This document shows, piece by piece, positions 12,401 to 61,256 of a stretch of DNA of 64,000 nt. The position numbers and the translations under genes are program-made. This stretch comes from Sabellastarte sp. h YS-2021 (taxonomy: Eukaryota; Annelida; Polychaeta; Sabellida; Sabellidae), in NCBI GenBank assembly GCA_964017235.1, contig OZ024936.1, positions 33,688,040 through 33,752,039 of the forward strand, given 5' to 3'. Positions within the stretch are counted from its first letter, which is position 1. Each line of letters starts with the position of its first letter. The notes under the pieces are model-generated. The model was given only the letters and a program-made list of their open reading frames with translations, searched no databases and was not told the DNA's origin.

Positions 12401-13902
12401 GTTCTTTTTTATTTTTAGTTTAGGCAATTGTCTTGGAAACCATATATTTTTTATTTTAGTGAAATCTGCTGGGTTTTTTAAAATTTTTAATGTACCTGTA
12501 CATGTGTATGTCCCTTGAAATAATAATAATGACAATTGTAAATTGGCTTTTATATAAAATATAAAACAAAGAGCCATTATCTAATATAACTAAAGAATAT
12601 TCTTTACAACTTGAGAGAAATTCTTTAAAATGAATAAAGAGTCTCTCAAGACGTTGCAAGTTACACATAACCACAGTGTTCAGGCTTTCATTAAAAGTTT
12701 GATAGATACAGGTAAAGAGTTGTATAGGAGCTATGGCACTGCAGATTTAATGGGTAGGATTTAACAGAGAAAATATCCCCAAGTCATGCATGTACAATTA
12801 GCATTTACTCACAAGAACATGTTCAGAAATTCCTTCTTAGTACATGGTGTCAAAATATTGGATATTTTCATACGTTCTATGTTCATAAGATCCTACATTC
12901 AGCATGTGTATCGGAATGTTTGCCACCCTCTGGTTATTCATATTTTAAATTTATATATTTGTGGATACTGTCTCTTTCAAAACAATGTTCAGGTTGTTAT
13001 CATGATGTGTAGTTCTTAAAGAGTGGAAAAAACAAATATTCAGTGGTTCATAAGTTTTTTACCACACCTTTTCTAAATTTCCACTGGCCAAATGTCTGCC
13101 TTCCAAATGTCCCGGATTCAAAAAAAGTATATAACATATGAAGAGGATAATGTACTCTTGCCACAAGTATAATACTGGTCATATATACAATAAGGGATGT
13201 TTTACTTTTACTTTTTAATTCAATTTTTTAGGAGCCAATTTCATCAAAACACCAGGTCTGTATTTCTCCCAATTGAAGAAAATACAGCCTTGAGGGGGTA
13301 ATAAAACATATACACCCAAAATAAAACAGTGTTATATCATTTAAAGTAATGAAAGACATTATTTGTGTTTTATATTATCAATGAAGAAATTTAAACACTG
13401 TCAAACTGTAGAAAATATAATTATATAGAAATCAAACAAGGGTAAATTGTTGAGGGCCAAATTTTATCTTGATATATTTGAAGTATATAGGTCACTGAAT
13501 ATTCGTTAAGGCTCCCCATCCTCTAAGAGTTATTGGCCCAGCTGGCCAACTCCATCTTCCAACCCGTCTTTGCGCCTCTAATTTATTGCTATAAAAGTCT
13601 GATACAATTAGTGTGTAGAGCACTAGGCATCCTCCAGCAAAGGTCAGGATCATGATTTTAGGCCACAGGAAGTGAGTACATTAACCACCATACCGCCAAG
13701 CTGTTAACCAAGGTTACTAGCATTCATAATAAAATCTAGATTACTCAAACATGGTCATTTAAACCAAAACAACATTTTTGGGAAAAAATTAAAAAATTTT
13801 TCAGTGTTTTTTCATCACTTTTCACAACTGTGCTCAAATGGACAAAAAGCTGACATGAACAAATGCAGCAGAAACAAAAATGTACTCATAAAAATACTAT
13901 TA
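9409..13902. other. start of the 33 kb intron, mostly unique AT-rich DNA
   Basis: No exon supported on either strand. 13066-13105 (CCACTGGCCAAATGTC, then CAAATGTCCCGGATTC) matches a segment at 30812-30852. 13600-13720 resembles a decayed SINE on the minus strand. The rest shows nothing. Confidence 0.4.
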
Positions 13903-14126
13903 GAGTAAGAAATCTAAAATTCGCCAGGAATCTAAAATTCGCCACTTCTAAAACCTTAGTTAATTTTATGAAGAAAATGATGTTTTGTCTTAAAATTGGT
14001 ATTTTTCAGTTCAAGAAGCCTTAATTTACTATACAGTCAACAAATCTCACCACAATTCATTTATTTTATTAGTATTTTCACATGTGTCGAATTTCAGATA
14101 TGTGGCAAATTTTAGATTTCTTACTC
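13903..14126. mobile_element. 224 bp MITE with TA target site (copy 2)
   Basis: Near-identical to the element at 5515-5739 across its whole length, including the doubled AATCTAAAATTCGCCA arm, and again flanked by TA (13901-13902 and 14127-14128). Several substitutions separate the copies. Confidence 0.9.
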
Positions 14127-15840
14127 TATCAGTGTAAATATCTACCCAGGCTCTTACATTTTAGTTTCTTTAAGTAATTCCATGATGAATTTTGTGGAAT
14201 TGATAAAGCACCAAATATACAGAAAGGCTCTAAGGTTAAAAGGACATTCAGTGTTTTGTTATGTTTTTTTCCTGGAAAAACTCAAATACAAAGAATACCA
14301 TTACAGTTCTCAGTTTCCTGGTGTTTTTGTTTTTAAAAACTACTTTTATACACAGATCACATTCGAATTCAATTTACAGAATAAAGAGTATCAAAAGAGA
14401 CAATGTCTGTTATGTCATTAAAAATATATTTTCATTGTCCCTTTACCCATGCAAGACCCTATACATTATATGCAGGGCTGAAAGGGTTTCAGGATAGCTT
14501 TTGAAATCAAGAATAGTGTCATTTGTTTTGAGTGAATGAAAACACATTGTGTTTATCTTGGACAAATATTAATTGTGGCCTATGAAGCATCAATATATTT
14601 GTTTATATATTTTTATTTAAGAATTATTCAAATGAAGGAAGGAATAAGATGACACCAAAGCGTACGTAAAGACAAGGAGTTCAACATGCAGATGAATCCC
14701 TCTAAGTTTTTTCATAAGTTGAAATGTTATGGGTTTACCAAATACAATATTTTTTTGCTAGACATTTCAAAGCATTACAGGCAATACAGCGTGAAGAAAG
14801 AAATGCCTATTTTAAATCAGCCAAAGGAATTGTTCATGAAGACTTTTTTGATCAATAATTTTCTTTAATTGCCAACAAAATATTTTCCATTACTAGATAT
14901 TTAGTCACTCTTAAAAATTAATGTGTAAAGTTGTTATATTTGCATTCTGTTGACCTTCAAGATGATGCTGGTATGATATCCCAGCATTTTCACATGCTGC
15001 CATAAACCGCAGTCAAACCCATGGCTATAGGGATAAGGGACAGATGTTTGTCACAAATAAGGTCTGCAAACTCCAGGTTAGTTTTGTGTTATACAGGGAA
15101 TACGAAACCCCTCTTCACTTTCTCTTTCATTGGATCATGCACAGTTGATTTTCTACCATTCAGATGCCTCAATACCAGCTAATGTACACGAGTAACCTAT
15201 ATGTGATAATTACCCCTACCTCCAAAAGGAGAGTGTTGTGAGTATTCTGATCAAGTTCGTCTATCTGTCTGTTTGTCTGCACACCTAACTAAAAAAACTA
15301 CACATAGCAAGAACAGACTCCAGAATTTTTGAGGGATTTTTTAACAACATCTATAAAAATTTGAAGTAGACTGTTTGGAATTCCAAATTCATATTTTGAA
15401 CTCCAAATATGTATGTGGAATTCTCAAAATCTCAAAAACTATTTATCGCATTGGGGTCTTGTTTTCATATAACAGTGAGGTCTACCTTTGGCTCAGTTCT
15501 CCTTAAAGATGATCTGAATTTGCATTGAGACTACAGTATTTTTTAGGTATTTCTCACCAATATCTGGTTCCAGATCCCTTTGTGAGGGTTTCTACCCCCT
15601 CATGTATTGCTTATCTACCCATTTCCACCCTAGTGAAAAGTTTGTACACTCTTTCTTAATGGGATAATATCTCTGATTTTAATAATGCAAAACTTTGTTT
15701 ACATTTTTCCCAACAAACTGCATTAAATTTACATTAAAAAAAATTTAGATTGGAAATTTGTACTATGCCAATTTATGGTGTAATGGCTGTACAAGAAGTT
15801 CAAACTTTGACGCTTTTTTGTTGTTGTCAAAAGCATGATA
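14127..15840. other. non-coding intronic stretch
   Basis: No gene. 14940-15080 has tRNA-like/SINE-like pieces on the minus strand (CCATGGGTTTGACTGCGG) too weak to call. 15240-15290 has a TCTGTCTGTTTGTCTG run. Confidence 0.35.
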
Positions 15841-15924
15841 TAACAAGACCACTGCCGCGGTGTGTATCTCCCGCCGAGCATTAAAGGGGAAGAAATACCT
15901 TTTCCGAGATATTCACAATGATTT

Positions 15925-16545
15925 TATAGGTGAAGGTCACTACAGCAAGGGCAATGGTCAAATCAAGGTCAGACCATGACGTCGCACACCTACACCCCCT
16001 AACCAATGTCCCTACCAAGTATCAACTTCCTACACCTTACAGTTTCTGAGATATAGCCCGGACAAGATTTTTTAGGTCAAGGTCGCTACAGCAAGGTCAA
16101 AGATCAAATGAAGGTCAGACCATGACATTGCACACCTACACCCACTAACCAATGTCCCTACCAAGTATCAACTTCCTACACCTTATGGTTTCCGAGATAT
16201 AGCCCGGACAAGATTTTATAGGTCAAGGTCACTACAGCAAGGTCAAAGGTCAAATCAAGGTCAGACCATGACGTTGCACACCTACATCCCCTAACCAATG
16301 TTCCTACCAAGTATCAACTTCCTACACCTTACGGTTTCCGAGATATAGCTTGGACAAGATCTTCAAAATTGGGTCTCTGCGGCAAGGTCAAAGGTCAAAT
16401 CAGGGTCAGACCATGACGTTGCACACCTACACATCCTAACGAATGTCCCTACCAAGTACCAACTCCCTACACCTTACGGTTTGTGAGATATAGTCTGGAC
16501 AAACTTTTTCCCGCCACCTGCCCGCCCACCCGCCCATCGGGACAC
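15925..16545 (+). repeat. 146 bp tandem repeat, about 4 units, with nuclear-receptor half-sites
   Basis: CCATGAC.TTGCACACC recurs near 15974, 16120, 16266 and 16411 (145-146 spacing). Each unit has CTTACGGTTTCCGAGATATA and one or more AGGTCA half-sites. A perfect DR1, AGGTCAAAGGTCA, is at 16240-16252 and 16385-16397, and TCAAGGTCA is at 16223-16231. It ends in a C-rich CCCGCC/CGCCCATCGGGACACCATGG segment, as does the 53.3 kb copy. Confidence 0.9.
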
Positions 16546-16559
16546 CATGGGCTGTCGGG

Positions 16560-17367
16560 TAAAAAATAGATGAACAACATATTTGAGAGAAATTGTGTAG
16601 CTGCAATACTTTTGAAGATATAAGCCATTTACTCATTACGGTTATCATTAAAAATTGACAAAGTAGCTCTTACTCACTTAGCTATGGAGATACACTTACA
16701 AACTACTGACCATGTTGTAGCTGTGGAGAAAGTAGCTGAACAACATATTGGAACAAAATACTCTAAATGTAATAGTCTGAAAGTTATAAGCCATATAATT
16801 ATATTAGGTAAAGTGCTATTACTCAAATGTAGGCCAAAGGTCACCAAATCCAGTACAATAGGATACTCTTGTACTGCCCTGTGGGTCAAAAATTCGCTTG
16901 AAATTGCTCTATCTCTTACAGTTTGCGAGATATTTGTGATTTTTCACATTTTCACTAAAAGTAGCAATAAAGTAGCTATTACTCACTTGTACATTGAGCA
17001 ACAGTTGTGAAACTTAAACATGTTACAGTTCACAAAAAAGTAGATGAACAACATATTTGAGAGAAATTGTGTAGCTGCAATACTTTTGAAGATATAAGCC
17101 ATTTACTCATTATGGTTATCATTAAAAATTGACAAAGTAGCTATTACTCACTTAGCTATGGAGATACACTTCCAAACTACTGACCATGTTGTAGCTGTGG
17201 AGAAAGTAGTTGAACAACATATTGGAACAAAATACTCTAAATGCAATAGTTTGAGAGTTATAAGCCATATAGTTATATTAGGTAAAAGTGCTATTACTCA
17301 GTCAAAAGTAGGCCAAAGTTCACCAAACCCAACAGCATAGGATACCGTTGTACTACCCTGTGGCTCA
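16560..17367 (+). repeat. 474-480 bp tandem repeat, left block
   Basis: The module GCTATGGAGATACACTT..CAAACTACTGACCATG starts near 16681 and 17155. Within the unit, two subparts (GTAGATGAACAACATATTTG and GTAGCTGAACAACATATTG) are homologous. A third (TCAAAAATTCGCTTGAAATT then TTTGCGAGATATTTGTG) resembles the 170 bp repeats at 60 kb. Reading frames through it are repeat artefacts. Confidence 0.85.
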
Positions 17368-19143
17368 ATACTTTTAAGAGATAATTCGCATTTACTCATT
17401 TTGAGTAGGTGAGTAATTACCTACGGGTCTGAAACTTCACCATGTGAAAGCTCTCCCAAAAGTAGATGAATGAGCTATTTGATAAAAATTGGGTATCCGC
17501 AATACTTTTAGAGATAATTAGTATTTACTCATTTTGAGTAGGTGAATAATTAACTACAGGCCTGAAACTTCACCAAGTGAAAGCTCTCCCAAAAGTAGAT
17601 GAATGAGTTATTTGAGAAAATTTGGCTATCTGCAATACTTTTAAGAGATAATTTGCATTTACTCATTTTGAGTAGGTGAGTAATTATCTACGGGTCTGAA
17701 ACTTCGCCATGTGAAAGCTCTCCCAAAACTAGAAGAATGACTTATTTAAGAAAAATTGGCTATCTGCAATACTTTTAGAGATAATTTGTATTTACTCATT
17801 TTGAGTAGGTGAGTAATTACCTACGGGTCTGGAACTTCACCATGTGAAAGCTCTCCCAAAAGTAGATGAATGAGTTATTTGATAAAACTTGGGTATCCGC
17901 AATACTTTTACAGATAATTAGCATTTACTCATTTTGAGTAGGTGAATAATTAGCTACGGGTGTGAAACTTCACCAAGTGAAAGCTCTCCCAAAAGTAGGT
18001 GAATGAGTTATTTGAGAAAAATTGGCTATCTGCAATACTTTTAGAGATAATTCGCATTTACTCATTTTGAGTAGGTGAGTAATTAGCTATGGGTCTGAAA
18101 CTTCACCATGTGAAAGCTCTTCCAAAAGTAGGTGAATGAGTTATTTGAGAAAAATTGGCTATCTGCAATACTTTTAAGAGATAATTTGCATTTACTCAAT
18201 GACATTTTGAGTAGGTGAATAATTATCTACGGGTCTGAAACTTCACCATGCGAAAGCTCTCTCAAAAATAGATGAATGAGTTATTTGATAAAAATTGGGT
18301 CTCCGCAATAGTTTTAGAGATAATTAGCATTTACCCATTTTGAGTAGGTGAATAATTAGCTACGGGTGTGAAACTTCAAGTGAAAGCTCTCCCAAAAGTA
18401 GGTGAATGAGTTATTTCAAAAAAATTGGCTATCCGCAATACTTATAGAGATAATTTGCATTTACTCATTTTGAGTAGGTGAGTAATTAGCTATGGCTCTG
18501 AAACTTCACCATGTGAAAGCTCTTCCAAAAGTAGGTGAATGAGTTATTTGAGAAAAATTGGCTATCTGCAATACTTTTAAGAGATAATTTGCATTTACTC
18601 ATTTTGAGTAGGTGAGTAATTATCTACGGGTCTGAAACTTCGCCATGTGAAAGCTCTCCCAAAAGTAGATGAATGAGTTATTTGATAAAAATTGGGTATC
18701 CGCAATACTTTTAGAGATAATTAGCATTTACTCATTTTGAGTAGGCGAATAATTAGCTACGGGTCTGAAACTTCACCAAGTGAAAGCTCTCCCAAAAGTA
18801 GGTGAATGAGTTATTTGAGAAAAATTGGCTATCTGCAATACTTTTAGAGATAATTCGCATTTACTCATTTTGAGTAGGTGAGTAATTAGCTATGGGTCTG
18901 AAACTTCACCATGTGAAAGCTCTTCCAAAAGTAGGTGAATGAGTTACAGTATTTGAGAAAAATTGGCTATCTGCAATACTTTTAAGAGATAATTCGCATT
19001 TACTCATTTTGAGTAGGCGAGTAATTATCTACGGGTCTGAAACTTCACCATGTGAAAGCTCTCCCAAAAGTAGATCAATGAGTTATTTGATAAAAATTGG
19101 GTATCCGCAATACTTTTATAGATAATTAGCATTTACTCATTTT
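17368..19143 (+). repeat. 133 bp tandem array, about 13 units
   Basis: Unit landmarks are AAAGCTCTCCCAAAAGTAG, TTGGCTATCTGCAATACTTT, ATTTACTCATTTTGAGTAGG and GGGTCTGAAACTTCACC. The array replaces about 25 bases of one 480 bp unit: the left unit breaks after CCCTGTGGCTCA and the right resumes at CTCTTACGGTTTGCG. Units differ by clustered substitutions that recur in an alternating pattern, suggesting higher-order structure. Confidence 0.92.
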
Positions 19144-20520
19144 GCTCTTACGGTTTGCGAGATATTTGTGATTTTTCACATTTTCACTAAAAGTAGGAAT
19201 AAAGTAGCCATTACTCAATTGTGCATTGAGCAACAGTTGTGAAACTTCAATATGTTACAGTTCACAAAAAAGTAGATGAACAACATATTTGAGAGAAATT
19301 GTGTAGCTGCAATACTTTTGAAGATATAAGCCATTTACTCATTATGGTTATCATTAAAAATTGACAAAGTAGCTATTACTCACTTAGCTATGGAGATACA
19401 CTTCCAAACTACTGACCATGTTGTAGCTGTGGAGAAAGTAGCTGAACAACATATTGCAACAAAATACTCTAAATGCAATAGTTTGAGAGTTATAAGCCAT
19501 ATAATTACATTAGGTAAAGTGCTATTACTCACTCAAAAGTAGGCCAAAGTTCACCAATCCCCTTAGCATAGGACATTGTTGTATCAACCTGTGGGTCAAA
19601 AATTCGCTCGAAATTGCCCTATCTCTTACGGTTTGCGAGATATTTGTGATTTTTCACATTTTCACTAAAAGTAGCAATAAAGTAGCCACTACTCACTTGT
19701 GCATTGAGCAACAGTTGTGAAACTTCAATATGTTACAGTTCACAAAAAAGTAGATGAACAACATAGTTGAGAGAAATTATGTAGCTGCAATACTTTTGAA
19801 GATATAAGCCATTTACTCATTATGGTTATCATTAAAAAGTGACAAAGTAGGTATTACTCCCTTAGCTATGGAGATACACTTCCAAACTACTGACCATGTT
19901 GTAGCTGTGGAGAAAGTAGCTGAACAACATATTGCAACAAAATACTCTAAATGCAATAGTTTGAGAGTTATAAGCCATATAATTACATTAGGTAAAAGTG
20001 CTATTACTCACTCAAAAGTAGGCCAAAGTTCACCAATCCCCTTAGCATAGGACATTGTTGTACCACCCTGTGGGTCAAAAATTCGCTCGAAATTGCTGTA
20101 TCTCTTACGGTTTGCGAGATATTTGTGATTTTTCACATTTTCACTAAAAGTAGCAATAAAGTAGCCATTACTCACTTGTACATTGATCAACAGCTGTGAA
20201 ACTTCAATATGTTACAGTTCACAAAAAAGTAGATGAACAACATATTTGAGATGAAATTGTGTAGCTGCAATACTTTTGAAGATATAAGCCATTTACTCAT
20301 TATGGTTATCATTAAAAATTGACAAAGTAGCTATTACTCACTTAGCTATGGAGATACACTTCCAAACTACTGACCATGTTGTAGCTGTGGAGAAAGTAGC
20401 TGAACAACATATTGCAACAAAATACTCTAAATGCAATAGTTTGAGAGTTATAAGCCATATAATTACATTAGGTAAAAGTGCTATTACTCACTCAAAAGTA
20501 GGCCAAAGTTCACCAAACCA
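19144..20520 (+). repeat. 480 bp tandem repeat, right block, nearly three units
   Basis: The GCTATGGAGATACACTTCC module recurs near 19386, 19866 and 20346. The last unit breaks at CACCAAACC and passes into the right-end segment with CACGCACGCACTCACCC before the terminal hairpin. Confidence 0.88.
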
Positions 20521-20668
20521 AAAAGATTTTGAAGAGTGTAAAAATTCATTAGGACAAGTAATTTACCAAAAATGTGTAACTGTAGTAGTTTCAGAGAAAA
20601 CTGCATGACCCACTCACGCACGCACTCACCCACGCACGCATGTACGCACACACATGGTGCAAATTATA

Positions 20669-20697
20669 ATCTCCCGCCGGCAAGCCAGGCGGGAGAT
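20669..20697. repeat. terminal hairpin of family 1 element
   Basis: Stem ATCTCCCGCC / GGCGGGAGAT, ten of ten pairs, loop GGCAAGCCA. A 3' hairpin is the expected termination signal of Helitron-like replication. Confidence 0.8.
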
Positions 20698-20702
20698 AAT
20701 AA

Positions 20703-22203
20703 CAAGGGGAAGAATTATCCATAATTTCTTGAAACAAGTACCAACAAGAAATTTAAGGTTGTCAGATGAACTTTATCGTGGTTATACATAGTAGGCAGAA
20801 AACCACTTTAAGGTGGCAAGATATTTATAAAATACCTGTACAGTGTTCCACAAATCAACCTTTAAAGGACCAAACAGCATTACATAAGCGATGAAAAAAT
20901 CTAATTCAAGTTTTTATAAACATAATGAGGTTTTCAGCACTTAATTATCACATGAAAGAGAATTGAATGAAATTTGTATGGTAGGTCACACAATGCAATA
21001 AACTGAAAACGTGACTCGATTTTATCAATTTTCTATAGCCATGGATTAAGAATGATGAAACCCACTGGCACACAAAATCCACCCCACATGAATTTAATCT
21101 CTGAATAGTATAAAAAATAAGTAAACTCGTATAAAAATACAAACATTGTGTAATACAAACATTGTGCATCATAATAACTAAATAAACACTCACAAAAGCT
21201 ACAAATTTGGCAAGAATTTTGCATAAATAAACTAGAAACAAGAACGTTATCGCAGCAAAAAATTTCAAATTTGGCAACAAATGTCATCAACTGTACACTG
21301 TTGCACTCTGAACAATAAATATCAAATATATAAGTAAACTAGGTTTGGAATGGCAAACTGGTGTACTTTATATCTGGTAAAAGCTATCAGAAATCATGTT
21401 AAAAAGCCTTGTATAAGTTAAATCACCTGTATAAAAGGAGTAACTGCATAGAATTGTTCTTTGTTCCACATAAATTCCATACTTTTTAGGGTAATTCTTG
21501 GATTACAATGTGTAACAGGAATTGACAAAGATAGTTTTATGTTTCAGGAACATGCCGCTTGAGGGTTGGGAAAACTTTGTTTAAATGCTTTCTATTGTGT
21601 TTACTGGTAGATATGACCATTAAGCATCACATTTCAATAGTAGATGACAGAATACAAACATAATAAAAGGATTAATGGTTACACTAATGGCAGCATTCTA
21701 TGTGTTTATATTTCTTGTGACAAAACACAGCCAATCAGGCAGAAAAAAACTCAAATTCTGTGGCCACTTTCACTCAAAGTTTTGCTCAGTTTATGTTTAA
21801 CTGTAAATGATGATAAATTAAAAATAAGCAACCTGTTTCCACTGAACTTATGGTTTACATACAGCCAAGACCTATTAAGTAGAATTTCAGTAGACTTGGG
21901 TTGGTACTCTGAAAAAAAACTCAAACTGAAGTCAAATATAATTCCTATTAATCTAGGGTTTCAACTTTAAATTTTAGTTTGAGTATGTACGTAGGTGGGT
22001 CTTTACTTGAGAATTCCAAACCTGAGTTTACACTTATGTATGACTGAGTGTGAGACTGAGTTTGAGATATTACATGAATACCAACCCGACAAAATGCTTC
22101 CATGAAACTAGACTTTTCAGATAAAAGGCTAAACGACAATAATTTTAAAAGACCCTCTACAGATTTTTATTTATGTCCGTGTGAAGGGGAGACTTCTACT
22201 GAT
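20703..22203. other. non-coding intronic stretch
   Basis: AT-rich, no repeat recognised. A 110-residue frame at 20948-21280 (minus) is rich in Phe/Leu/Ile/Tyr as expected from AT-rich noise. Confidence 0.4.
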
Positions 22204-24411: not shown

Positions 24412-25992
24412 AGACGTCTCCTATCACCAAATGTAATTGTATCCACCGGATAGCATCCATTGGATACTATGGATTTGACTTTGTTACGCCTATGCCGCCG
24501 CCGCCGCCACTGTGTGTAGAGAGATTTCACTGTTACCGCTCTAACGAAAAAAATATTATAGCTATCCTTCTCAAATTTGCAGGATATATTCATAGCCATA
24601 AAATCTTGCCTGGGAATATTTTTGACCCCATTTTGAAAAACAAGATGGCCGCCACGGGCGTTTTTTGACTTTAAACAAGGACTTTTGGTGGCCCTCTAGA
24701 GCAATGGGTATTATAGGTAGAGATCTCAAATTCGCAGGATATGTTCCTCATTATAAAATCTTGACTGGGAATATTTTTGGCCTCATTTTGAAAAACAAGA
24801 TGGCTGCCACAGGCGTTTCTTTGCAGTCATGAAAAGTGCTTATATCTCCCTTATTACTGGTCCTAGAGGTTTGGGATGGTAAACCAACCTATAGGAAATC
24901 ATGGGCTGGGAATCTTTTGGTGTGGTCGGATTTGACCTTGGACCCCTCCTTCAAGGTCAAACGAGGATAGCCAAACTTAAAAGTGCTTATAACTCGCTTA
25001 TTATTGGTCCTAGAGGTTTGGGATGGTAACCAACCTATAGGAAATCATGGGCCGGGAATCTTTTGGTGTGGTCGGATTTGACCTTGGACCCCTCCTTCAA
25101 GGTCAAATGGGGATAGCCAAACTTAAAAGTGCTTATAACTCGCTTATTATTGGTCCTAGAGGTTTGGGATGGTAAACCAACCTATAGGAAATCATGGACC
25201 GGGAATCTTTTGGTGTGGTCGGATTTGACCTTGGACCCCTCCTTCAAGGTCAAATGGGGATAGCCAAACTTAAAAGTGCTTATAACTCGCTTATTATTGG
25301 TCCTAGAGGTTTGGGATGGTAAACCAACCTATAGGAAATCATGGGCTGGGAATCTTTTGGTGTGGTCGGATTTGACCTTGGACCCCTCCTTCAAGGTCAA
25401 ACGAGCATAGCCAAACTTAAAAGTGCTTATAACTCGCTTATTATTGGTCCTAGAGGTTTAGGATGGTAAACCAACATATAGGAAATCATGGGCTGGGAAT
25501 CTATGGCTGTGGTCGGATTTGACCTTGGACCCCTCCTTCAAGGTCAAACGAGGATAGTACACAAAATCATGTGCTGGGAATCTATTGCTGTGGTCAGATT
25601 TGACCTTGGACCCTCCATCAAGGTCAAACGAGGATAGCCAAACTTAAAAGTGCTTATAACTCGCTTATTATTGGTCCTAGAGCTTTGGAATGGTAAACCA
25701 AAATCTAGGAAATCATGGGCTGGGAATCTTTTGGTGTGATCGGATTTGACCTTTGGCCCCTCTTTCAAGGTCAAATGAGGATTGCCAAAATTAGTGTTTA
25801 TATCTTGCTTATTCGTATTCCTAGAGGTTTGCAGTGTCACACCAACCTATAGGAAATCATGGGCTAAGAATCTTTTGATATTGTCAGATTTCACCTTGGG
25901 CTTCTCCTTCAAGGTTAAGCGATGTTAGAATGGCTTTGGTGAGTTTTCTTCTGGTGGATACAATTTGCATCGGTTCTCCGATGCGATAGGTC
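24412..25992 (+). mobile_element. hairpin-ended element, family 3, about 1.6 kb
   Basis: The left end AGACGTCTCCTATCACC..ATTGTATCCACC is inverted at the right: GGTGGATACAAT..GATAGGTCT. The right end has a 7 bp hairpin, GCATCGG (25967-25973), TTCT, CCGATGC (25978-25984). The interior is about eight 147 bp tandem units marked by GGTCCTAGAGGTTTGGGATG and TTTGACCTTGGACCCCTCC. Two longer left modules contain AAAACAAGATGGC.GCCAC. A GCC-triplet run lies at 24494-24508. No coding frame. Confidence 0.8.
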
Positions 25993-28900
25993 TAGTTTGT
26001 AATTGTAATTGTAAATTTTAAATACAAATATGTAAATATCTTATTCAATAAAAAGAGTTTTTAAAAGTAATCTTTACCAAATTTGAATAAAACTGAAATA
26101 ATGAATAAGATCTAAGATACAAATTAGGTGTACATAGATAGTCAGAAGGAGATTCAGTCTGATTCTGGGAAATGTCTTCAAGTTTTGGAGAGAGAAGACA
26201 GTAACTATATGCATATCGACAAATTAGTGGCTTAATTGCTTCCCAGTAGCATTTTTATGAAAAGAATGAACCGATTAAACGTGGTCAGATATCAATATCA
26301 GTGTGTGTACACGCCGTAGTGTCTGTAGCACCATATCAGTTAACATCAGCCTCAGAGCCACCCATTGTCCACATTGTTTGCCAACCCTGAAACTGTTTGT
26401 TCCAGCCATCAGTGGAAACAATTATACCAATCATTTGAAATGTTCCAATATTTGCCAGTTAGAATAGCTTTTTGATGATTTTGTTTACACATTTCTTCAA
26501 ATACAATATGAAATATCTACAATACACAAACTCCTACAATTAAATGAACGAACAAAAAGTCTAAAAATTTCCTAGAATTTGACAATGTATAAATAAGATT
26601 ACAAATAAGATAGTTATTTAAAAAAACATATCAGAAGCTGTGAGGAAATTACCTCCAAATGGAGAAAGTTTCACATTTTTTTTTTTTTTGCAAATTTGGG
26701 GGTCTGTTGCTGAGGTTACTCATCAGCATAAAAGGCATAAATCTGGTACAAACCAATGTCCACTTACAACATTCACATTGTTGTCTTTGCAACAGAATTA
26801 GACCTAGTGAACAAGCACAGAACTTTCTCTAGAGAACATCCTTTTGAGGGCATGAATGAAAGCCCCCAATTTCTTAAAATTTTGATCACAATTAAGCTAC
26901 TGAATCAAGTCTGAAAAAGAATAAAAATACATCTACTCAATAAGGATTTCTAAATGAAAGTGTTGACACTAAATACAATGAGAAAGTCCTATTACACCCA
27001 TCATGTATTTGCACATTGTCAAGTAGTTGAAAAATGAGTGTAATTTACCAGTCATACTGGAAGTGTTATACTCTATATTATGTTTAGTGCTGAGTTCCCT
27101 CTCCAAATCTGTCCTACTAGTTTTCTCACCCTTTTGGTCACAGAATATTGTTGTATTTTTGTCTGTTAATTTTTGCAAAAATTAATGTCCACAATGAATA
27201 CTAGCAATAAACACCAATGACAGAATTTTGTTAAACTTCGTCTGAAATTATTTAAATGTTTTTGTCCTTTGTAGCGCTCTGTCTAACTTTCATTTATCCT
27301 ACAAGCTTAGTTTGAAGCCTGCTATCAAGTATAATGTACAATTGTGAACACACAGAGCAAAGAAAAACTTCTAAACATATATTTTCTTGGATGACATTTC
27401 CCAACCACTTCAAAATCAAGATAAAATATACATATTTGTTGCCAAAATAGAACTTGAGTAGTGAGAATTAATTTTCAATAATATCTTACATTACTGTTTA
27501 TTTTATCTGACAGGACAGAATTTTTTCCATGTAATTTTTTGTCATCTGTATTGAGGACAGTGTATTGTGTAGGCTTACTTATTATAATGTACAGTAAGAT
27601 GTGTAAAATCTGCTACAGTATGTGAAATTCACCACTTAAAATTAAGATAAAAGTAGAAAAATTCACTTAAATTCTGTACTGAGTAAATAAATGCTTTGCA
27701 ATTGTCCCACTAAAACACAAAGTTTGTGAGAATTTCTCACAACTAAAAAAGGAGTAAAACCCTTCTCATCTCGGCGGTAGTGTAAGGCCGCAATTTATGG
27801 TCGAAATTCACAGACGACCTTGATCTCGGAAACATACAATAAAGGTCAGCTTTACCTCAGTGTGAGGTGGTCAGAAGTGATTTTCAACAACTAGACAGAA
27901 GTTTTGAACATAACCAAAGTTTCCATGGCAAGGACAAATGCAGGGAAGGTAGCTAAAGGTAGAAGGCGGAAGTATAAGATTTAAAGGAAATATTAGAAAG
28001 GTTTGGAGACGGCTTTATTACTGTCATTTGCCATCTATTGAAAACGTGTATATCACAGGGTGGCATGAGCAGCAGTGTCTGACGAGGTACAAACCCTCAC
28101 CTACAGGAAGTGCTGACAAAATGTGGATTTTGAATCCAGATTAGGATCAATGTTTATTTAGACCAAGCCATGGGTAGACTCAACCTTGTGTGAAGAAATA
28201 ACCCTGATGTGATGTATACTGTTAAACTATGCATGCATATATTGCCAAAAAAAATCACAAAAACAATTTTGGATTTGAATCAAATCATCTTTGAAGAGGA
28301 CAGAGCCACAGAAAAAAAGGACCTGATGTATAGTTTTAGAGTTAAACACACGGACAAACAAACAGATGTGATTACACTACCCTAAGCCCTCTCATTCAAG
28401 TGGGGTGGGGTGGGGAATGAGGTTAATAAAATTGTCTCATCCATGGTGAATTTCTGAGACTGTGGTGAATTTTACATGTTTTACTCAAACAACTGTAACT
28501 ATATCTACAGCACATATTGATTGTGCATTCCCAAGAGTTAGGCAGGGTAAATGATGCATAGTTATGAGGACAATGATTACTTTATTGTATTTATCTGTTC
28601 TCGTGTTACACTTCTGAGATGTGGTACACCTAATTGAAAAGATTTTTTTTTGAGATGTCTAATAACTTTCATGTGTCTTTTTTCACATGAAATGGTTTGA
28701 TATAGGAAGTAATGAGGGAGCCATTTGAGGTGAAAGGGTTTTAACATGGACCTTGTTTCAATATGTATATAGCTATTCTAATTCTAATTTGACTTTTATA
28801 GTGCTTCATCTCTTCAACATGCAGATTCTTAACGATGCAACAAATCCACAAGTGTGAGTCCAAGAAAAATCAAATATCTGGTGACATGGAAACGGGGAGT

Positions 28901-31017: not shown

Positions 31018-31700
31018 AAAATAGCATCAGAGACGCCCATTCCTCCATGTCTGAGGAAACTGTACAGGACACCATACAGAGATACAGTGATGCAGAAGAG
31101 GTGAAAAGGTACAACTGATCAGATTTCTGGCAGAACAGACAGTTTAAGTTTTGTAAGAGTACAGGAGAAATAACTCACAAGAAAGGGGAAATGTGTGAAG
31201 ACAAAGAATCAAAAGAAGACAATTTAAGAGCAAGCTACAAGGAGAGATTAATTTGGAAACTAGAAGTTTATAAACTGTAAAATTCATTACTTGGAGTCAA
31301 AGTTTACTGTCCATAGAGATAGTACAACTAGGTATAAGTACAATGTTTAATAATCAATTACAGCAATCCGAATAGCTTTATGATAGGTGAAATGTGTCTG
31401 AAATGTACTATTAGAAACCATTCTGGCACAGCCAGGCTTAGTGGACACCAACCACCAAGATCACCCCATGATATTGCTCGACTACATTTCCTGAGGAACA
31501 ACCCTGCAAAGGTTTGACATTCTACCTTACAGTTGTTGCAATCTGCAAAAGATAAGACTTTCAAGTCCAAAGTCGGAAATGTTTCAACTCCATGGTCACT
31601 GAGCCTAGGTCAAAGGTCACACCAAGGATACACCATGATGTTGTACAACTACATCCCCCAAGCAGTAGTCCCTGCTAAGTTTCAACTTTTTTATCTTTTC
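31018..31700 (+). repeat. dispersed repeat shared with 52160-53220 (diverged copy)
   Basis: AAATAGCATCAGAGACGCCC opens both copies. Both continue through GTGAAA.GTTCAA-type sequence, AATTATAAATCTGTAAAATT-type sequence and CAGCTGAAGCAATCC-type sequence. Both then reach the AGGTCAAAGGTCACACCA and CCATGATGTTG.ACAACTACA module of the 146 bp repeat. Here only about one 146 bp unit remains. Confidence 0.65.
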
Positions 31701-31822
31701 TAGTGACCTGGCCTGGACAAGGTTGGCAGCCTTTTTAGGCTGTGGGGTGAATCCATCAGTTAATAGAAAACTGTTGTGTGACTTGATAAGATACGCATTC
31801 ACTGATCACTCAGCTGGACTTA

Positions 31823-48180: not shown

Positions 48181-48354
48181 TTTAGAACGGTTTAGAAGTT
48201 ATTAAGGGATTTGTATTTTCCTCGTTAATAAAAATTTTAATGATTAATTAATTAGCCATTTTTTAATGGAAGTCTACCAAAATCTAATCATTTGCAGATC
48301 TTTATACCCTGCATCCATATATCAAATTTCAGGCGAATATTCTAAACGCTTCTT

Positions 48355-52149: not shown

Positions 52150-53345
52150 TTGCAATTTCAAAAAATAGCATCAGAGATGCCCGTACACCACGGCCCTGGG
52201 GAAACAGTTTTCAACACCATGAGATACAGAAGAAGTGAAACAGTTCAAAGATCAGGACACTTTCAGAGTAAACAGTGTCAGCTTTGTGAAGGTCCAAATA
52301 ATATTTAAGCCAAGAAGATAATGTTTAAGAAAGACAACATTTATGTAAAGATAAAGTATTACAATGAAAATTCAATAGTAAGCTGATGGCATTAATCAGT
52401 AAACTAAAATTATAAATCTGTAAAATTTATTAATTGAAGTATACCTGTCAATGAAAATAGCACAATTAAGTAAAAGTACATTTCATAATCAGCTGAAGCA
52501 ATCCACATATCTCTGTGATAAGAGAAATATGACTCAAAGATGGCAGGTCAACACACTTTGACAGAGCCAAGGTTACAGGTCACACCATGATTGTGCACAC
52601 CTACACCCCCTAACCAATGTCCCTACCAAGTATCAACTTCTTACACCTTACAGTGTCTGCGATATCGCCCACACAAGATTTTAAGGGGCAAGGTCACTAC
52701 AGCAAGGTCAAAGGTCAACTCAAGGTCACACAATAATGTTGTACACCTACACCCTCTAGCTAATATCCATATCAAAATATCAATTTCCTACACTTTACAT
52801 TTTATGAAACATAAAACAGACAAGATTTCCAAGCTTAAGGTCACTATGGCATGGTCAAAGGTCAAATCAAGGTCACAGAATGACGTTGTACAACCTACAC
52901 CCCCCAATTAATGTCCCTACCAAGTATTAACTTCCTAATCCGTATGGTTCCTGAGACATAGCTCAGACAAGATTTTAAAGGTCAAGGTCACTACAGCAAG
53001 GTCAAAGGTCAAATCAATGTCACACTATCATATTGCACACCTACACCCCCAACTAATGTCCCTACCAAGTATTAACTTCATACGCCTTACAGTTTATGAC
53101 ACATAGCCCAGACAAGATTTTCAAACCCAAGGTCACTATGCCAAGATCAAAGGTCAAATCAAAGTCATATCATGACGTTGCTCACCTACAACCCCCAACC
53201 AATGTCCCTACCAAGTATCAATTTCCTACACCTTACGGTTTCTGAGATACAGCCCGGACAAACTATTTCCCGCCGCCCACTCGCCCATCCGGACACCATG
53301 GGTGAAAACAATACCCAGACAACCCTTAAGGGCTGTGGGGTAAAA
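52150..53345 (+). mobile_element. dispersed element ending in 146 bp nuclear-receptor-site repeats
   Basis: 52160-52560 is homologous to 31018-31440. It is followed by about five 146 bp units (anchor near 52585, 52731, 52879, 53025, 53172) of the kind inside the family 1 element. DR1 AGGTCAAAGGTCA is at 52705-52717. It ends in CCCGCC..CGCCCATCCGGACACCATGG and an ACCC-TTAAGGGCTGTGGGGT foldback near 53320-53341. Confidence 0.75.
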
Positions 53346-53798
53346 AACTGTTATCAGGCAAATGTGAAGCTGACAGTCAATCAGGTGAGGCCAAATTCAC
53401 AGTAACTGTCATAAAACATTGTCAAACTCAGAGTTAAATTTCCACCAGGCAATGTCAAACTGAGAGTAATTGTCAACAGGTATTGTCAAACTCACAGTAA
53501 TAGCTGTGGCGTAAAAATCAGTATCTGGAATTGCTATGTCACAGGGTGACATCAATCCCATATAAAAACTGGCACAGAATACGCAATGAAAGTTGGTAAA
53601 ATTTGCAATTTTAAAATAAATGGCCTCAGATGTAGATCCATGTAGATTCACAAATTAAATCCGGCAATTTTAAATCAAATGTATTTTACAACAACCAAAA
53701 GGCTGGGCTTTTCCTTTTTTGTCATTTGACAAGACACTTTAACCATTGTAAAGTACTCTTGTGTCTTTGTGGTGTTTTCATTACAGCCAGTGACTTAC

Positions 53799-54433: not shown

Positions 54434-55970
54434 CTGAAATATGGACATAAGACAGTGTTCACAATATGTAACTTAAGAATTCGACACAGAGCCTGAAATG
54501 ATCCAACTGGGGACAACCCTTTATAAGTAAGTCAAAATTATCAAAAGTTGTGCCAATTTTTATCACTACAGAACAGAGGCTGAATATAAAATAAAAAATC
54601 ACAATTTTAAAAGAATTACTCACAATTAAAGAAACTGCATATAAATCTGACCATAACAATTATAACCATAACAAATTTCACACTTCCAACTTGAATAGAA
54701 AACTTAATGTACTAGTTAACTACATTTTAATCTTGTTTAGTCAATCTTCAGGGATCAGAATTTTCTTTATTTACACATAATTTTCTTGTGTTTTAACAAG
54801 AAAGACTCAAGTTTACAACAAACAGCTGAGCAAGTTGAAGTTTTGTTTGCTAATCTTACAGTCACTATAATAAATCTACTGTTAGTTACCTTAACGATTT
54901 AAGTATACCCATATACCAAAAATAAATTGAATATGTTAAGTTACTTCTATTTCACCGAACTTTAAGTGGTAACCTTAAAGTTTTTATAACAAATTTTGTT
55001 ACAAATATATACAGACATCTTAAGCTAGGTGCCTTTCCAGTGTCTAGCTAAACCCGCACACCAATGCTGAATGAAATTCATGCGGTAATTGTTGAATATT
55101 CATCCTTTCTATGGTAACCTCAAAGTCAACTGAATGAAGTTATTGTTGGGAGTTTAAACATTAAAGCAGATTTCTGGTCTTTAATACAGTTTCCTATCAT
55201 TTTGTAATGATTGTCCATAAAATAAAATGCAATACACAGGTACAAATACACCACTACATTATCTACATTTTATAATCTCTCGGTTTGCAGGAGAAAATAA
55301 TTTTTGAACAAGACTACAACTGGAATTTAAAACACAGATAAATCAAGAGCTACAATAACAGATTTCAATTTTACAAAGATTTTGTATGCTATATGAATGG
55401 GGTCACTAAGCAAAACTAAATCATAAAGATTGAATAATAAAGGACAATATAAGAGAGTCTAAGAGAATATCTTTGGTAATGCTCAGTGAAAAAAAAATGT
55501 GAATGAATGCACTGATTGTGTTGAAAACTTTTTGATGATTGAATCATCTGTCACAGGTGTCCAATTGATAAAACCAACTTATAGGAAATCATGGGCTTTA
55601 AATTAAATGTTTTACAGATAATCATAAATCGACTGAAATGAATGCACAGAAGGTGATTCATTAAATCATCTGTTTGTTTTACTGGACATCTTGATTTGAT
55701 TTAAATTAATGCTTATTATAATAGTGCTTGAATACAATTTTTACTAGATATTGCATCTCAATTCAGTGTATCCCCGGACGGGACATGGTTGAAGCGTGAC
55801 ATACAGAGTATTATGGTTGACACAAATATACCCCTGTTGGGAGGGGGCATAAGTGTTTATGGGAGCAAGTTGTACTGACACTAAGTAAACAAAATATTTG
55901 CTGAATGAAAGATACAAATGTAACTAGAGGATCGCTCGCAAAAAAAAAAAGATAATGTTTTTGCATAGCA
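54434..55970. other. upstream intronic stretch
   Basis: No exon, promoter or repeat supported. Poly-A runs near 55490 and 55940. Confidence 0.35.
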
Positions 55971-56044
55971 AAAACAAAGCGTCCCGAAAAGGATATAAAG
56001 GTGAGTGCTAAAGTATTAAGAAAATGCTTCGTTTCTAGCCTTAT

Positions 56045-56337
56045 ACTGTTGTGGCAACCAAAGTCAGCGCAGTCTGCTCTATCTAGCACGGTTTTCACGA
56101 TATAAGCATTTTTGTGTTTTGCAAAAAATAAAAAAATTAAAAATATCCGCTATATTTGGCGAGACAAAAATATTTTGAAAATTGGCATGGCTACTCTGCA
56201 GAGATACCCAGCAGGTCCAAAATTTTGTTGAGTTCGCTCCATATAGCACAGTTTTCGAGATATAAGCATTTTTGTGTTTTGCAAAAACTTTGAAAATTCA
56301 AAATGGCCACCATTTTTGGGGAGACAAAAATTTTTGT
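56045..56337 (+). repeat. 170 bp repeat, left two units of split array
   Basis: Units contain CTATCTAGCACGGTTTTC, GAGATATAAGCATTTTTGTG and AAAATGGCCACCATTTTTGG. The array breaks in the AAAATTTTTG stretch and resumes at 59767. Confidence 0.85.
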
Positions 56338-56427
56338 CAAGACCACTGCCGTGGTGTGTATCTCCCGCCGAGCATTAAAGCAGAAGAAATAGCTTTTCCG
56401 AGATATTCACAATTTTTCATTTTCGTG
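56338..56427 (+). repeat. family 1 left end inside family 2
   Basis: CAAGACCACTGCCGTGGTGT, then TATCTCCCGCCGAGCATTAA, matches 15844-15905 with few changes. It leads directly into the 133 bp array. No family 1 right-end hairpin is found at the other side. Confidence 0.85.
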
Positions 56428-59400
56428 TGTGAAAGGTCTTCCAAAAGTAGGTGAATGAGTTATTTGAGAAAAATTGGCTATCTGCAATACTATTAAGAGA
56501 TAATTCACATTTACTCATTTTGAGTAGGTGAATAATTATCTATGGGTCTGAAACTTCACCATGTGAAAGCTCTCCCAAAAGTAGGTGAATGAGTTATTTG
56601 AGAAAAATTGGCTATCTGCAATACTTTTAGAGATAATTCGCATTTACTCATTTTGAGTAGGTGAGTAATTAGCTATGGGTCTGAAACTTCACCATGTGAA
56701 AGCTCTCCCACAAGTAGATGAATGAGTATTTGATAAAAATTGGGTATCCGCAATACTTTTACAGATAATTAGCATTTACTCATTTTGAGTAGGTGAATAA
56801 ATAGCTATGGGTCTGAAACTTCACAGAGTGAAAGCTCTCCCAAAAGTAGGTGAATGAGTTATTTGAGAAAAATTGGCTATCTGCAATACTTTTAGAGATA
56901 ATTCACATTTACTCATTTTGAGTAGGTGAATAATTAGCTACGGGTCTGAAACTTCACCAAGTGAAAGCTCTCCCAAAAGTAGGTGAATGATTAATTTGAC
57001 AAAAATTGGCTATCTGCAATACTTTATGAGATAATTCGCATTTACTCATTTTGAGTAGGTGAGTAATTAGCTATGGGTCTGAAACTTCACCAAGTGAAAG
57101 CTCTCCCAAAAGTAGGTGAATGAGTTATTTGAGAAAAATTGGCTATCTGCAATACTTTTAGAGATAATTCGCATTTACTCATTTTGAGTAGGTGAGTAAT
57201 TAGCTATGGGTCTGAAACTTCACCGAGTGAAAGCTCTCCCAAAAGTAGGTGAATGAGTTATTTGAGAAAAATTGGCTATCTGCAATACTTTTAGAGATAA
57301 TTCGCATTTACTCATTTTGAGTAGGTGAGTAATTAGCTATGGGTCTGAAACTTCACCGAGTGAAAGCTCTCCCAAAAGTAGGTGAATGAGTTATTTGAGA
57401 AAAATTGGCTATCTGCAATACTTTTAGAGATAATTCGCATTTACTCATTTTGAGTAGGTGAGTAATTAGCTATGGGTCTGAAACTTCACAGAGTGAAAGC
57501 TCTCCCAAAAGTAGGTGAATGAGTTATTTGAGAAAAATTGGCTATCTGCAATACTTTTAGAGATAATTCGCATTTACTCATTTTGAGTAGGTGAGTAATT
57601 AGCTATGGGTCTGAAACTTCACCAAGTGAAAGCTCTCCCAAAAGTAGGTGAATGATTAATTTGACAAAAATTGGCTATCTGCAATACTTTATGAGATAAT
57701 TCGCATTTACTCATTTTGAGTAGGTGAGTAATTAGCTATGGGTCTGAAACTTCACAGAGTGAAAGCTCTCCCGAAAAGTAGGTAAATGAGTTATTTGAGA
57801 AAAATTGGCTATCTGCAATACTTTTAGAGATAATTCGCATTTACTCATTTTGAGTAGGTGAGTAATTAGCTATGGGTCTGAAACTTCACCAAGTGAAAGC
57901 TCTCCCAAAAGTAGGTGAATGATTAATTTGACAAAAATTGGCTATCTGCAATACTTTATGAGATAATTCGCATTTACTCATTTTGAGTAGGTGAGTAATT
58001 AGCTATGGGTCTGAAACTTCACCAAGTGAAAGCTCTCCCAAAAGTAGGTGAATGAGTTATTTGAGAAAAATTGGCTATCTGCAATACTTTTAGAGATAAT
58101 TCGCATTTACTCATTTTGAGTAGGTGAGTAATTAGCTATGGGTCTGAAACTTCACCAAGTGAAAGCTCTCCCAAAAGTAGGTGAATGAGTTATTTGAGAA
58201 AAATTGGCTATCTGCAATACTTTTAGAGATAATTCGCATTTACTCATTTTGAGTAGGTGAGTAATTAGCTATGGGTCTGAAACTTCACAGAGTGAAAGCT
58301 CTCCCAAAAGTAGGTGAATGAGTTATTTGAGAAAAATTTGCTATCTGTAATACTTTTAGAGATAATTCGCATTTACTCATTTTGAGTAGGTGAGTAATTA
58401 GCTATGGGTCTGAAACTTCACCAAGTGAAAGCTCTCCCAAAAGTAGGTGAATGAGTTATTTGAGAAAAATTGGCTATCTGCAATACATTTAGAGATAATT
58501 CGCATTTACTCATTTTGAGTAGGTGAGTAATTAGCTATGGGTCTGAAACTTCACCAAGTGAAAGCTCTCCCAAAAGTAGGTGAATGAGTTATTTGAGAAA
58601 AATTGGCTATCTGCAATACTTTTAGAGATAATTCGCATTTACTCATTTTGAGTAGGTGAGTAATTAGCTATGGGTCTAAAACTTCACCAAGTGAAAGCTC
58701 TCCCAAAAGTAGGTGAATGAGTTATTTGAGAAAAATTGGCTATCTGCAATACTTTTAGAGATAATTCGCATTTACTCATTTTGAGTAGGTGAGTAATTAG
58801 CTATGGGTCTGAAACTTCACCAAGTGAAAGCTCTCCCAAAAGTAGGTGAATGAGTTATTTGAGAAAAATTGGCTATCTGCAATACTTTTAGAGATAATTC
58901 GCATTTACTCATTTTGAGTAGGTGAGTAATTAGCTATGGGTCTGAAACTTCACCAAGTGAAAGCTCTCCCAAAAGTAGGTGAATGAGTTATTTGAGAAAA
59001 CTTGGCTATCTGCAATACTTTTAGAGATAATTCGCACTTACTCATTTTGAGTAGGTGAGTAATTAGCTATGGGTCTGAAACTTCACCAAGTGAAAGCTCT
59101 CCCAAAAGTAGGTGAATGAGTTATTTGAGAAAAATTGGCTATCTGCAATACTTTTACAGATAATTCGCATTTACTCATTTTGAGTAGGTGAGTAATTAGC
59201 TATGGGTCTGAAACTTCACGAAGTGAAAGCTCTCCCAAAAGTAGGTGAATGAGTTATTTGAGAAAAATTGGCTATCTGCAATACTTTTACAGATAATTCG
59301 CATTTACTCATTTTGAGTAGGTGAGTAATTAGCTATGGGTCTAAAACTTCACCAAGTGAAAGCTCTCCCAAAAGTAGGTGAATGAGTTATTTGAGAAAAA

Positions 59401-59766
59401 TTGGCTATCTGCAATACTTTTAGAGATAATTCGCATTTACTCATTTTGAGTAGGTGAGTAATTAGCTATGGGTCTGAAACTTCACCAAGTGAAAGCTCTC
59501 CCAAAAGTAGGTGAATGAGTTATTTGAGAAAAATTGGCTATCTGCAATACTTTTAGAGATAATTCGCATTTACTCATTTTGAGTAGGTGAATAATTGGCT
59601 ATGGGTCTGAAACTTCACCATGTGAAAGCTCTTCCAAAAGTAGGTGAATGAGTTATTTGAGAAAAATTGGCCATCTTGAATACTTTTAGAGGTAATTCGA
59701 ATTTACTCTTTTTGAGTAGGTGAGCAATTAGCTATGGGTCTGAAACTTCACCAAGTGAAAGCTCTT
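56428..59766 (+). repeat. 133 bp tandem array, about 25 units
   Basis: Same unit as at 17.4-19.1 kb, spacing 133 bases (for example GGGTCTGAAAC at 57075, 57208, 57341). Units are much more uniform than in the first array. A variant with GATTAATTTGACAAAAATTG and ACTTTATGAGATAATTC recurs at about 57000, 57655 and 57925, indicating duplication of multi-unit blocks. Confidence 0.95.
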
Positions 59767-60990
59767 TGGGATAGCTGCTCTGCAGAGATACCCTGAAGAT
59801 AAAAAATTTCGTCGAAATCGCTCTATGTAGCACGGTTTTCGAAATATAAGCATTTTTGTGTTTTGCAATTTTTGCGCAAAAATTCGAAAATTCAAAATGG
59901 CCGCCATTTTTGGCGAGACAAAATTTTTTTGAAAATTGGCATGGCTACTCTGAAGATATACCCTGTGAGTCAAAAATTTCGTCGAAATCGCTCTATCTAG
60001 CACGGTTTTCGAGATATAACCATTTTTATGTTTTGCAATTTTTGCGAAAAATTTGAAAAATCAAAATGGCCGCCATTTTTGGCTAGACAAAATTTTTTTG
60101 AAAATTGGCATGGCTACTCTGCAGAGATACCCTGTGGGTCAAAAATTTCGTCGAAATCGCTCTATCTAGCACGGTTTTCGAGATATAAGCATTTTTGTGT
60201 TTTGCAATTTTGCGAAAAATTCGAAAATTCAAAATGGCCGCCATTTTTTGCGAGAAATTTTTTGTTTGAAAATTGGCATGGCTACTCTGCAGAGATACCC
60301 TGCCGGTCAAAAATTTCGTCGAAATCGCTCTATCTAGCAGGGTTTTTGAGATATAAGCATTTTTATGTTTTGCAATTTTTGCGAAAAATTTGAAAATTCA
60401 AAATGGCCGCCATTTTTGGCGAGACAAAATTTTTTTGAAAATTGGCATGGCTACTCTACGGATATACCCTGTGGGTCAAAAATTTCGTCGAAATCGCTCT
60501 ATCTAGCAGGGTTTTCGAGATATAACCATTTTTATGTTTTACAATTTTTGCGAAAAATTCGAAAATTCAAAATGGCCGCCATTTTTGGCAAGACAAAAAT
60601 TTTTTCAAAATTGAGATAACTACTCTGCAGAGATACCCTGAGGGTCAAAAATTTCGTCGAAATCGCTCTATCTAGCACGGTTTTCGAGATATAAGCATTT
60701 TTGTGTTTTGCAATTTTTGCGAAAATTCAAAATGGCCGCCATTTTTGGCGAGACAAAATTTTTTTGAAAATTGGGAAAAGTACTCCGCAGAGATATCCTG
60801 CGCATCAAAAATTTTGTCGAAATTGCTCTATCTAGCACGGTTTTTGAGATATAAGCATTTTTGTGTTTTGCAATTTTTGCGAAAATTTCGAAAATTCAAA
60901 ATGGCCGCCATTTTGGGCGAGACAAAAATTTTTTGAAAATTGGGAAAACTACTCCGCAGAGATACCCTGCGGGTCAAAAATTTCGTCAAG
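59767..60990 (+). repeat. 170 bp tandem repeat, about 7 units
   Basis: GTCGAAATCGCTCTATCTAG at 169-170 base spacing (59811, 59981, 60150 and on), with ACGGTTTTCGAGATATAAGC and AAAATGGCCGCCATTTTTGG in each. A 121-residue frame (60028-60393) and its neighbours encode only the repeat and are not genes. Confidence 0.93.
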
Positions 60991-61256
60991 TTATCATCCG
61001 GACAAGCTTCCCCATCGAAAAAAGACATTTTTGGTCATGTGACCTCTCTGATTGGTTGAAATGTCACTGCAGCATATTCAAAAAAATTCCCCAGGGCTAC
61101 TGCCTAAACCTGCCAAATTTGAAAAGAATCCGCCTAACGGTTACAGAGTTATAAGGAAAACAAAATGCGGAGCCGGCGGAGCCGCAGGAGCCGGCGGAGC
61201 CGGCGGAGCCGGAAGCTCTCCCATACACAAACAAGCGTCCCGCAAGGGACGCTTAA
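60991..61256 (+). repeat. family 2 3' module, GC minisatellite and terminal hairpin
   Basis: Matches 48355-48612. At 61168-61212 a 9-base GC-rich unit (GGAGCCGGC) is repeated about five times. The terminal 9 bp hairpin follows, then GCTTAA. Confidence 0.85.

Follow-up and report, generated by a model that had tools for sequence, protein, structure and literature searches.

A probable Helentron-type non-autonomous element with satellite-like arrays, and a proposed part of a second such element inside it, in the annelid Sabellastarte

According to the parts of Vojvoda Zeljko et al. (2020, PMC7492417) on which we draw, the HINEs of the oyster Crassostrea gigas (Cg_HINE), which are non-autonomous rolling-circle elements of the Helentron type, bear on their 5' side a subterminal inverted repeat (subTIR), a complementary inverted repeat (IR) 1-12 bp away and a microsatellite, and on their 3' side a subTIR and then a palindrome. 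Their monomers are mostly 140-180 bp long, their arrays run in one orientation, and two of 11 elements hold two arrays. Helentrons and HINE-Mo/DINE-1, as portrayed in portions of Thomas et al. (2014, PMC4067079), likewise have subTIRs, a 3' palindrome and T-rich targets, and the bivalve Pearl elements CvA, CvE and CvG carry short arrays of ~160-bp repeats (passages of PMC7492417 and PMC11136912). Oyster HINE loci of composite make-up have been described before (same 2020 study, and sections of a review, PMC12628747); the review tells of 'shuffled' Helitron/satellite DNA loci of C. gigas, with truncated elements inside others and mixed array types in one element. Here we study a locus, F1, which runs on the minus strand from 20702 to 15844 of a stretch of 64,000 nucleotides (the window) from Sabellastarte sp. 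h YS-2021 (GCA_964017235.1, contig OZ024936.1, forward-strand positions 33,688,040 to 33,752,039). It looks like a non-coding element of the rolling-circle type, an ordinary yet instructive case, with part of a related element inside it. We assign a probability of roughly 0.77 to the reading that F1 is a HINE with satellite-like arrays in which a second HINE is nested.

All coordinates are those of the window, and the features of F1, like those of the elements compared with it, lie on the minus strand except where noted. Read on that strand, F1 consists of TTAT, TATCTCCCGCC, 9 nt, GGCGGGAGAT, a TGCG/TGAG microsatellite, the arrays, GGCGGGAGATA, CACACCGCGGCAGTGGT and CTTG. Its 5' module (labelled LF; 20669..20702) places the subTIR TATCTCCCGCC (20688-20698) near the terminus and, beyond the spacer, the inverted IR GGCGGGAGAT (20669-20678); the microsatellite-like segment of TGCG/TGAG units follows at 20611..20653 (period 12, 3.6 copies in Tandem Repeats Finder, TRF). 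The 3' module (labelled RF; 15844..15919) has a matching 11-bp subTIR GGCGGGAGATA (15865-15875), the palindrome ACCGCGGCAGTGGT with one pair lost (15848-15861) and the terminal CTTG (15844-15847). That is, F1 has the 5' subTIR with inverted IR and the matching 3' subTIR that characterize HINEs, as well as the microsatellite and central tandem repeats that are present in some of them.

F1 shares with Cg_HINE the plan of both ends, its 3' palindrome being a weak one, the single orientation of the arrays, the common range of monomer lengths and the presence of more than one array. Unlike Cg_HINE, it adds a composite 478-bp unit and the 5' module and array of a second HINE, the comparison being one of plan and not of sequence. 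The likeness to Pearl elements is one of description. F1 resembles Helentrons in its subTIRs and, more doubtfully, in a weak 3' palindrome and in the T on both flanks, but its 3' subTIR stands 21 nt from the end, not 38-60 as in the Helentrons of the sections consulted. With the shuffled oyster loci it has in common the truncated element lodged inside another and the mixture of array types; what differs is that the junctions of F1 are described base by base, at one locus.

A first-pass annotation of the same DNA had proposed a large HINE-like element on the strength of three features: ATCTCCCGCC lying 22 bases inside the left end, a perfect 10-bp hairpin of that sequence at the right end, and arrays of 146, 480 and 133 bp between. 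All three are present. ATCTCCCGCC occurs at 15866-15875 (22 in from 15844), in the hairpin arms at 20669-20678 (plus strand) and 20688-20697 (minus strand), and at 56360-56369; the hairpin spans 20669-20697; and TRF reports periods of 146, 478 (~480) and 133 bp. The class assignment is supported too, in that the plan matches those of Cg_HINE and of two neighboring elements, F2 and F3, described below; the proposed polarity and unity of the element appear not to be, as we discuss in turn.

Since the region is rich in repeats by TRF, one might suppose that F1 is a chance mosaic of satellites whose end motifs are accidental. The four exact matches to ATCTCCCGCC in the window compare with none in 100 shuffles. 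Similarly, we scanned for GC-rich hairpins with an arm of at least 8, a loop of 3-16 and, no more than 8 kb away, a third occurrence of the arm, and found three in the window (20669, 61233 and 63437; 6 start positions), that of F1 among them, whereas 60 shuffled windows averaged 0.1 start positions and never exceeded 2. The scan missed F3, whose hairpin arm is shorter than 8 bp; for the 61233 hairpin it listed 53978 as a second partner; the partner of the 63437 hairpin at 55768 was rejected as a 3' module, being in the wrong place for that element. Folded as single-stranded DNA, the F1 5' hairpin reaches z -6.42, with none of 200 shuffles as stable (we computed 12 folds in all, each z against 200 shuffles). 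Together with the recurrence of the same plan in F2 and F3, the shuffled controls make a chance mosaic extremely unlikely.

A canonical Helitron begins with TC, ends with CTRR and inserts between A and T. F1 ends with CTTG and starts at about TTAT, and we do not class it as such; F3 does end with CTAG. A second alternative is a cut-and-paste element of the MITE kind (miniature inverted-repeat transposable element), bounded by short inverted repeats and a duplicated target site. CTTGTTAT is indeed found at both ends of F1, and some elements of the present kind were formerly classed as MITEs, as noted in part of PMC4067079. The repeats of F1, however, are not terminal: they are subterminal and asymmetric, ~4 nt from one end and 21 nt from the other. 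Moreover, CTTG also terminates F1b, a second copy of the 3' module whose flank differs. We regard a MITE as very improbable.

The first-pass annotation took the right-end hairpin for the 3' terminus. The hairpin fits instead a 5' module on the minus strand, with the microsatellite adjoining it. By comparison with F3 and with published HINEs we infer that F1 is most likely a minus-strand element, the strong hairpin being its start and the left end its 3' module. This polarity is favored in that a hairpin with a microsatellite behind it matches the published 5' layout of HINEs, and F3, on the other strand, has a 3' end (palindrome, CTAG, then TT) that resembles the canonical 3' end described in the parts of PMC4067079 cited here. 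We accordingly rejected a plus-strand reading, since the microsatellite follows the hairpin and the 3' end of F3 gives the opposite polarity. At the left boundary, homology with 56338-56413 (94.7%, 76 bp) ends at 15844, that is, at CTTG. The right (5') outer edge is putative, placed by architecture alone.

Beside both ends we also observe an 11-mer, TTCTTCCCCTT, with exactly two occurrences in the window, 15884-15894 and 20704-20714, both on the minus strand; the subTIR follows it after 5 nt at the 5' end and after 8 nt at the 3' end. Of 2000 shuffles, 5 reach its alignment score, as do 11 of 2028 63-mers of the window; we leave the 11-mer as weak and unexplained.

In the interior of F1, read from the 5' side, a 478-bp array (19145..20516; TRF, 2.9 copies) is followed by a 133-bp array (17366..19144; TRF, 13.3 copies) and then by a further part of the 478-bp array (16567..17365; ~1.7 copies by blast). 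The two parts agree closely, 16561-17368 being 93.2% identical to 19267-20078 (blast), and the 133-bp array interrupts one 478-bp unit, of which it replaces ~23 bp. The 478-bp unit is itself a composite trimer of monomers a, b and c (166, 162 and 150 bp), each of which opens at a shared motif. Monomers a and b are related (z 10.4; 0/300 shuffles), and the 133-bp unit is related to both (z 9.3 for a and 9.8 for b; 0/500 shuffles); monomer c has its nearest relative in the 169-bp unit of F2 (z 7.2). The resident repeat is thus better explained as one lineage, comprising the composite 478-bp unit and the 133-bp monomers, than as two of the three distinct arrays that had been proposed for a single element.

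The remaining array has a 5' module of its own. A T6 run at 16561..16566, where intact 478-bp units read CATCTACTTTTTTGTGAAC, is followed by ACCCGACAGCCC and a GGGCGGG microsatellite (16503..16560), and these by the 146-bp array (15915..16502; TRF, 4.0 copies). With its motif removed, the 146-bp unit yields z of -0.2 to 0.8 against monomers a, b and c, the 133-bp unit (entered as a dimer) and the 169-bp unit; against the 147-bp unit of F3 it yields z 2.5 (0/300). By these alignments its resemblance to the F1 and F2 units is confined to the motif. Three loci in the window have this start, ACCC[CG]ACAGCC, followed each time by a 146-type repeat. The second (52577..53347) comprises T6, ACCCCACAGCCC with an IR, a microsatellite and a 146-bp array, and 52672-53302 is 80.8% identical to 15914-16551 (641 bp); the third, decayed (31591..31748), comprises ACCCCACAGCCT with the IR AGGCTG and a partial 146-type unit. 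In the alignment, the IR present in the copies at 53 kb and 31 kb is absent from the one in F1. We refer to this element as HINE A; it begins at T6 in two of its three loci. We read the 146-bp array and its 5' module as a portion of another HINE that lies within F1, because the start is shared with two other 146-type loci and a T6 run stands at the junction.

Two other accounts of the three arrays must be weighed against this nesting. According to the first, F1 belongs to one stable HINE family in which three arrays are fixed and the segment in mid-element, from ACCC to the microsatellite, is integral. All the arrays do lie between one pair of matching ends, and families with two arrays exist in oyster (PMC7492417, in the parts used here). 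Nevertheless, the segment in mid-element is the very start common to the 53-kb and 31-kb loci, and the other copy of the 3' module joins a 133-bp array, not a 146-bp one; we find a fixed family improbable. According to the second, F1 became composite by array-to-array recombination or template switching at shared motifs during rolling-circle copying, without any insertion of HINE A. This account can point to ATATCTCGGAAA, which is common to the 146-bp unit and to the F1 3' module beside their junction, at similar spacing, and to the junctions of F1b and of the 133-bp array in the 478-bp unit, which are likewise near in phase. It fits less well with the fact that the HINE A block opens just as two other loci do, and does so on a T6 run found in the intact unit as well. 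Recombination is a serious possibility, though in our judgment a minority one. With nesting preferred, the most economical account is an insertion of HINE A at T6 and a later loss of its 3' part, such that its 146-bp array now abuts the F1 3' module.

The 3' module recurs in F1b (56338..59765), which consists of 25 units of 133 bp and an F1-type 3' module (56338-56413, 94.7% identical to 15844..15919) and is lodged in the 169-bp array of F2. Its palindrome ACCACGGCAGTGGT is intact, compared with the one pair lost in F1. F1b ends at 59765, directly adjoining the 169-bp array, and when its flanks are joined that array is restored in phase, 6-7 nt short. Because of this restoration, both edges look like insertion edges.

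Several observations weigh against our interpretation. With respect to the ends, the 3' palindrome folds weakly (z -0.34 in both F1 and F1b, with 75 and 66 of 200 shuffles as stable), a second copy of the F1 5' module was not found in the window, and CTTGTTAT at both ends can be read as a target duplication, its CTTG being element sequence in F1b. With respect to the arrays, monomer c shows only a weak relationship with a (z 3.9) and no clear one with b (z 1.9; 9/300). For HINE A, the locus at 31.7 kb has neither the T6 run nor the microsatellite; the 5' fold is weak (z -1.89 at 53 kb and z -1.24 in F1, matched by 12 and 28 of 200 shuffles); and no 3' module was found, the one candidate with 2 mismatches, at 52185, being about what chance would give by our estimate. 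F1b has no 5' module, and its site is not clean, since it lacks 6-7 nt and is not flanked by T; one-sided truncation is rather frequent in oyster elements, according to a portion of PMC8268682. Finally, no autonomous partner was seen in the window: none of its 11 complete stop-to-stop open reading frames (ORFs) of at least 120 aa has a Pfam match above the cut-off, and no Rep, helicase or endonuclease ORF was seen among them, in contrast to Helentrons as treated in the excerpts of PMC4067079.

If F1 is nevertheless a HINE, we would suppose the following mechanism and order of events. A Rep/helicase made elsewhere would nick the 5' end, which is flanked by T, next to the subTIR/IR hairpin, and one strand would be displaced and copied through the arrays until the 3' subTIR, palindrome and CTTG brought copying to a halt; the resulting single strand would then insert into T-rich DNA. 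The arrays might subsequently lengthen and homogenize by unequal exchange or slippage. The three arrays would have two sources: a resident repeat in two forms, the composite 478-bp unit and the 133-bp monomers, and HINE A, which would have inserted at T6 in a 478-bp unit and, on losing its 3' part, left its 146-bp array in contact with the F1 3' module.

The motif at which monomers open deserves separate treatment. On the element strand, GCTTATATCTCGNAAACCGT (~20 bp) appears in the same orientation in the 146-, 169- and 478-bp units, which belong to HINE families that are otherwise dissimilar; weaker versions of it are present in the 133- and 147-bp units and in the 3' module. All 72 hits within elements are on the predicted element strand, a count that speaks for the polarity adopted above but is partly circular in that the motif was drawn from these arrays, which are among the hits; three hits fall outside elements, and five shuffled windows give 0-1 hits each. 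When 11 stretches were tested, four had 0/400 shuffles as good, the others 4, 5, 31, 58, 69, 118 and 395 of 400; the motif windows had been chosen by eye, and two of nine (146 and 3' module) do not recur letter for letter in the tested stretch. In the F1 3' module the best hit is not the motif. The link to the 147-bp unit of F3 is weak when that unit is left out (31/400 shuffles as good), although the unit scores 30 and 36 against two 169-type units, in the same orientation, with shuffle maxima of 22 and 25 (25 shuffles each). Conceivably GCTTATATCTCGNAAACCGT is a working site, such as a replication pause, a binding site for Rep or a host protein, or a point of exchange, through which unrelated elements swap arrays. 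We hold this to be doubtful; such swapping would explain the composite F1. The BIV160/Cg170 satellites form a large family with two conserved motifs in common (PMC5139131, in part), and GCTTATATCTCGNAAACCGT may be one of the two, a likeness of description in which letters were not compared. In the 10 papers that were text-searched, of 248 on the topic, the motif strings GAGATATAAGC and ATATCTCG do not occur.

Of the neighboring elements, F2 (55956..61256), the host of F1b, follows the HINE plan on the minus strand. Its 5' subTIR/IR (61233-61254) reads AAGCGTCCC TTGC GGGACGCTT, with a GGCTCCGCC microsatellite and a 169-bp array behind; its 3' subTIR GGGACGCTT (55977-55985) is followed by a 21-nt stem-loop (55956-55976), and its outer 3' end, at about 55956, is a putative edge. 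Both of its ends fold strongly (z -7.02 at the 5' end and -6.14 at the 3' end); the F2b 5' fold has z -1.95. F3 (24437..25995) is oriented oppositely to F1, on the plus strand, and has a 147-bp array. It starts with the subTIR GTATCCACC (24439) and a GCC microsatellite, and it closes with the subTIR GGTGGATAC (25953), an 18-nt palindrome, 11 nt ending in CTAG, and TT. The 3' palindrome folds with z -4.10 and the 5' end with z -2.74 (5/200). The best argument that the plan matters is that F1, F2 and F3 are unlike in sequence and alike in plan.

A further element, F3b (63466 to 61257, minus strand), abuts the start of F2; it has arrays and a 3' module in common with F3, and 5' modules that are unlike in sequence and similar in layout. 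Its 5' end folds with z -4.46; its 3' end is no better than shuffles (z 0.16; 101/200 as stable). An F2-like HINE 5' module with a 169-type array occupies 46704-48612, surrounded by 172-bp inverted repeats (46528-46699 and 48614-48782, 88%), as if a HINE lay inside an element with terminal inverted repeats. Other repeats in the window are a 243-bp dispersed pair (5500-5742 and 13889-14129; 94% identical, ~53-bp inverted ends, MITE-like), another pair of ~370 bp (32250-32613 and 37196-37571; 87%), and a 44-bp tandem repeat at 3074-3670 (13.5 copies, 83% matches). The minus strand at 53722-54531 holds an open frame of 269 aa that looks coding-like by eye and has no Pfam match. The window yielded no Rfam match and no tRNA; scans of viral and prokaryotic contig collections gave zero matches, a result that means little given the contents of those collections.

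What makes F1 informative is that the way in which multi-array HINEs may arise can be read at one site. If the swapping role doubted above were true, that is, if GCTTATATCTCGNAAACCGT were an exchange or replication site, it would help to explain the spread of such satellite arrays. F1 also suggests a polarity opposite to that first proposed, with the strong hairpin as the start of the element and not its end. As we read it, the locus combines an element that came to rest within the array of another, at a run of T, with a composite repeat and a monomer array that each break up the other; elsewhere in the window, a 25-monomer copy lacking the 5' module sits in a third element.

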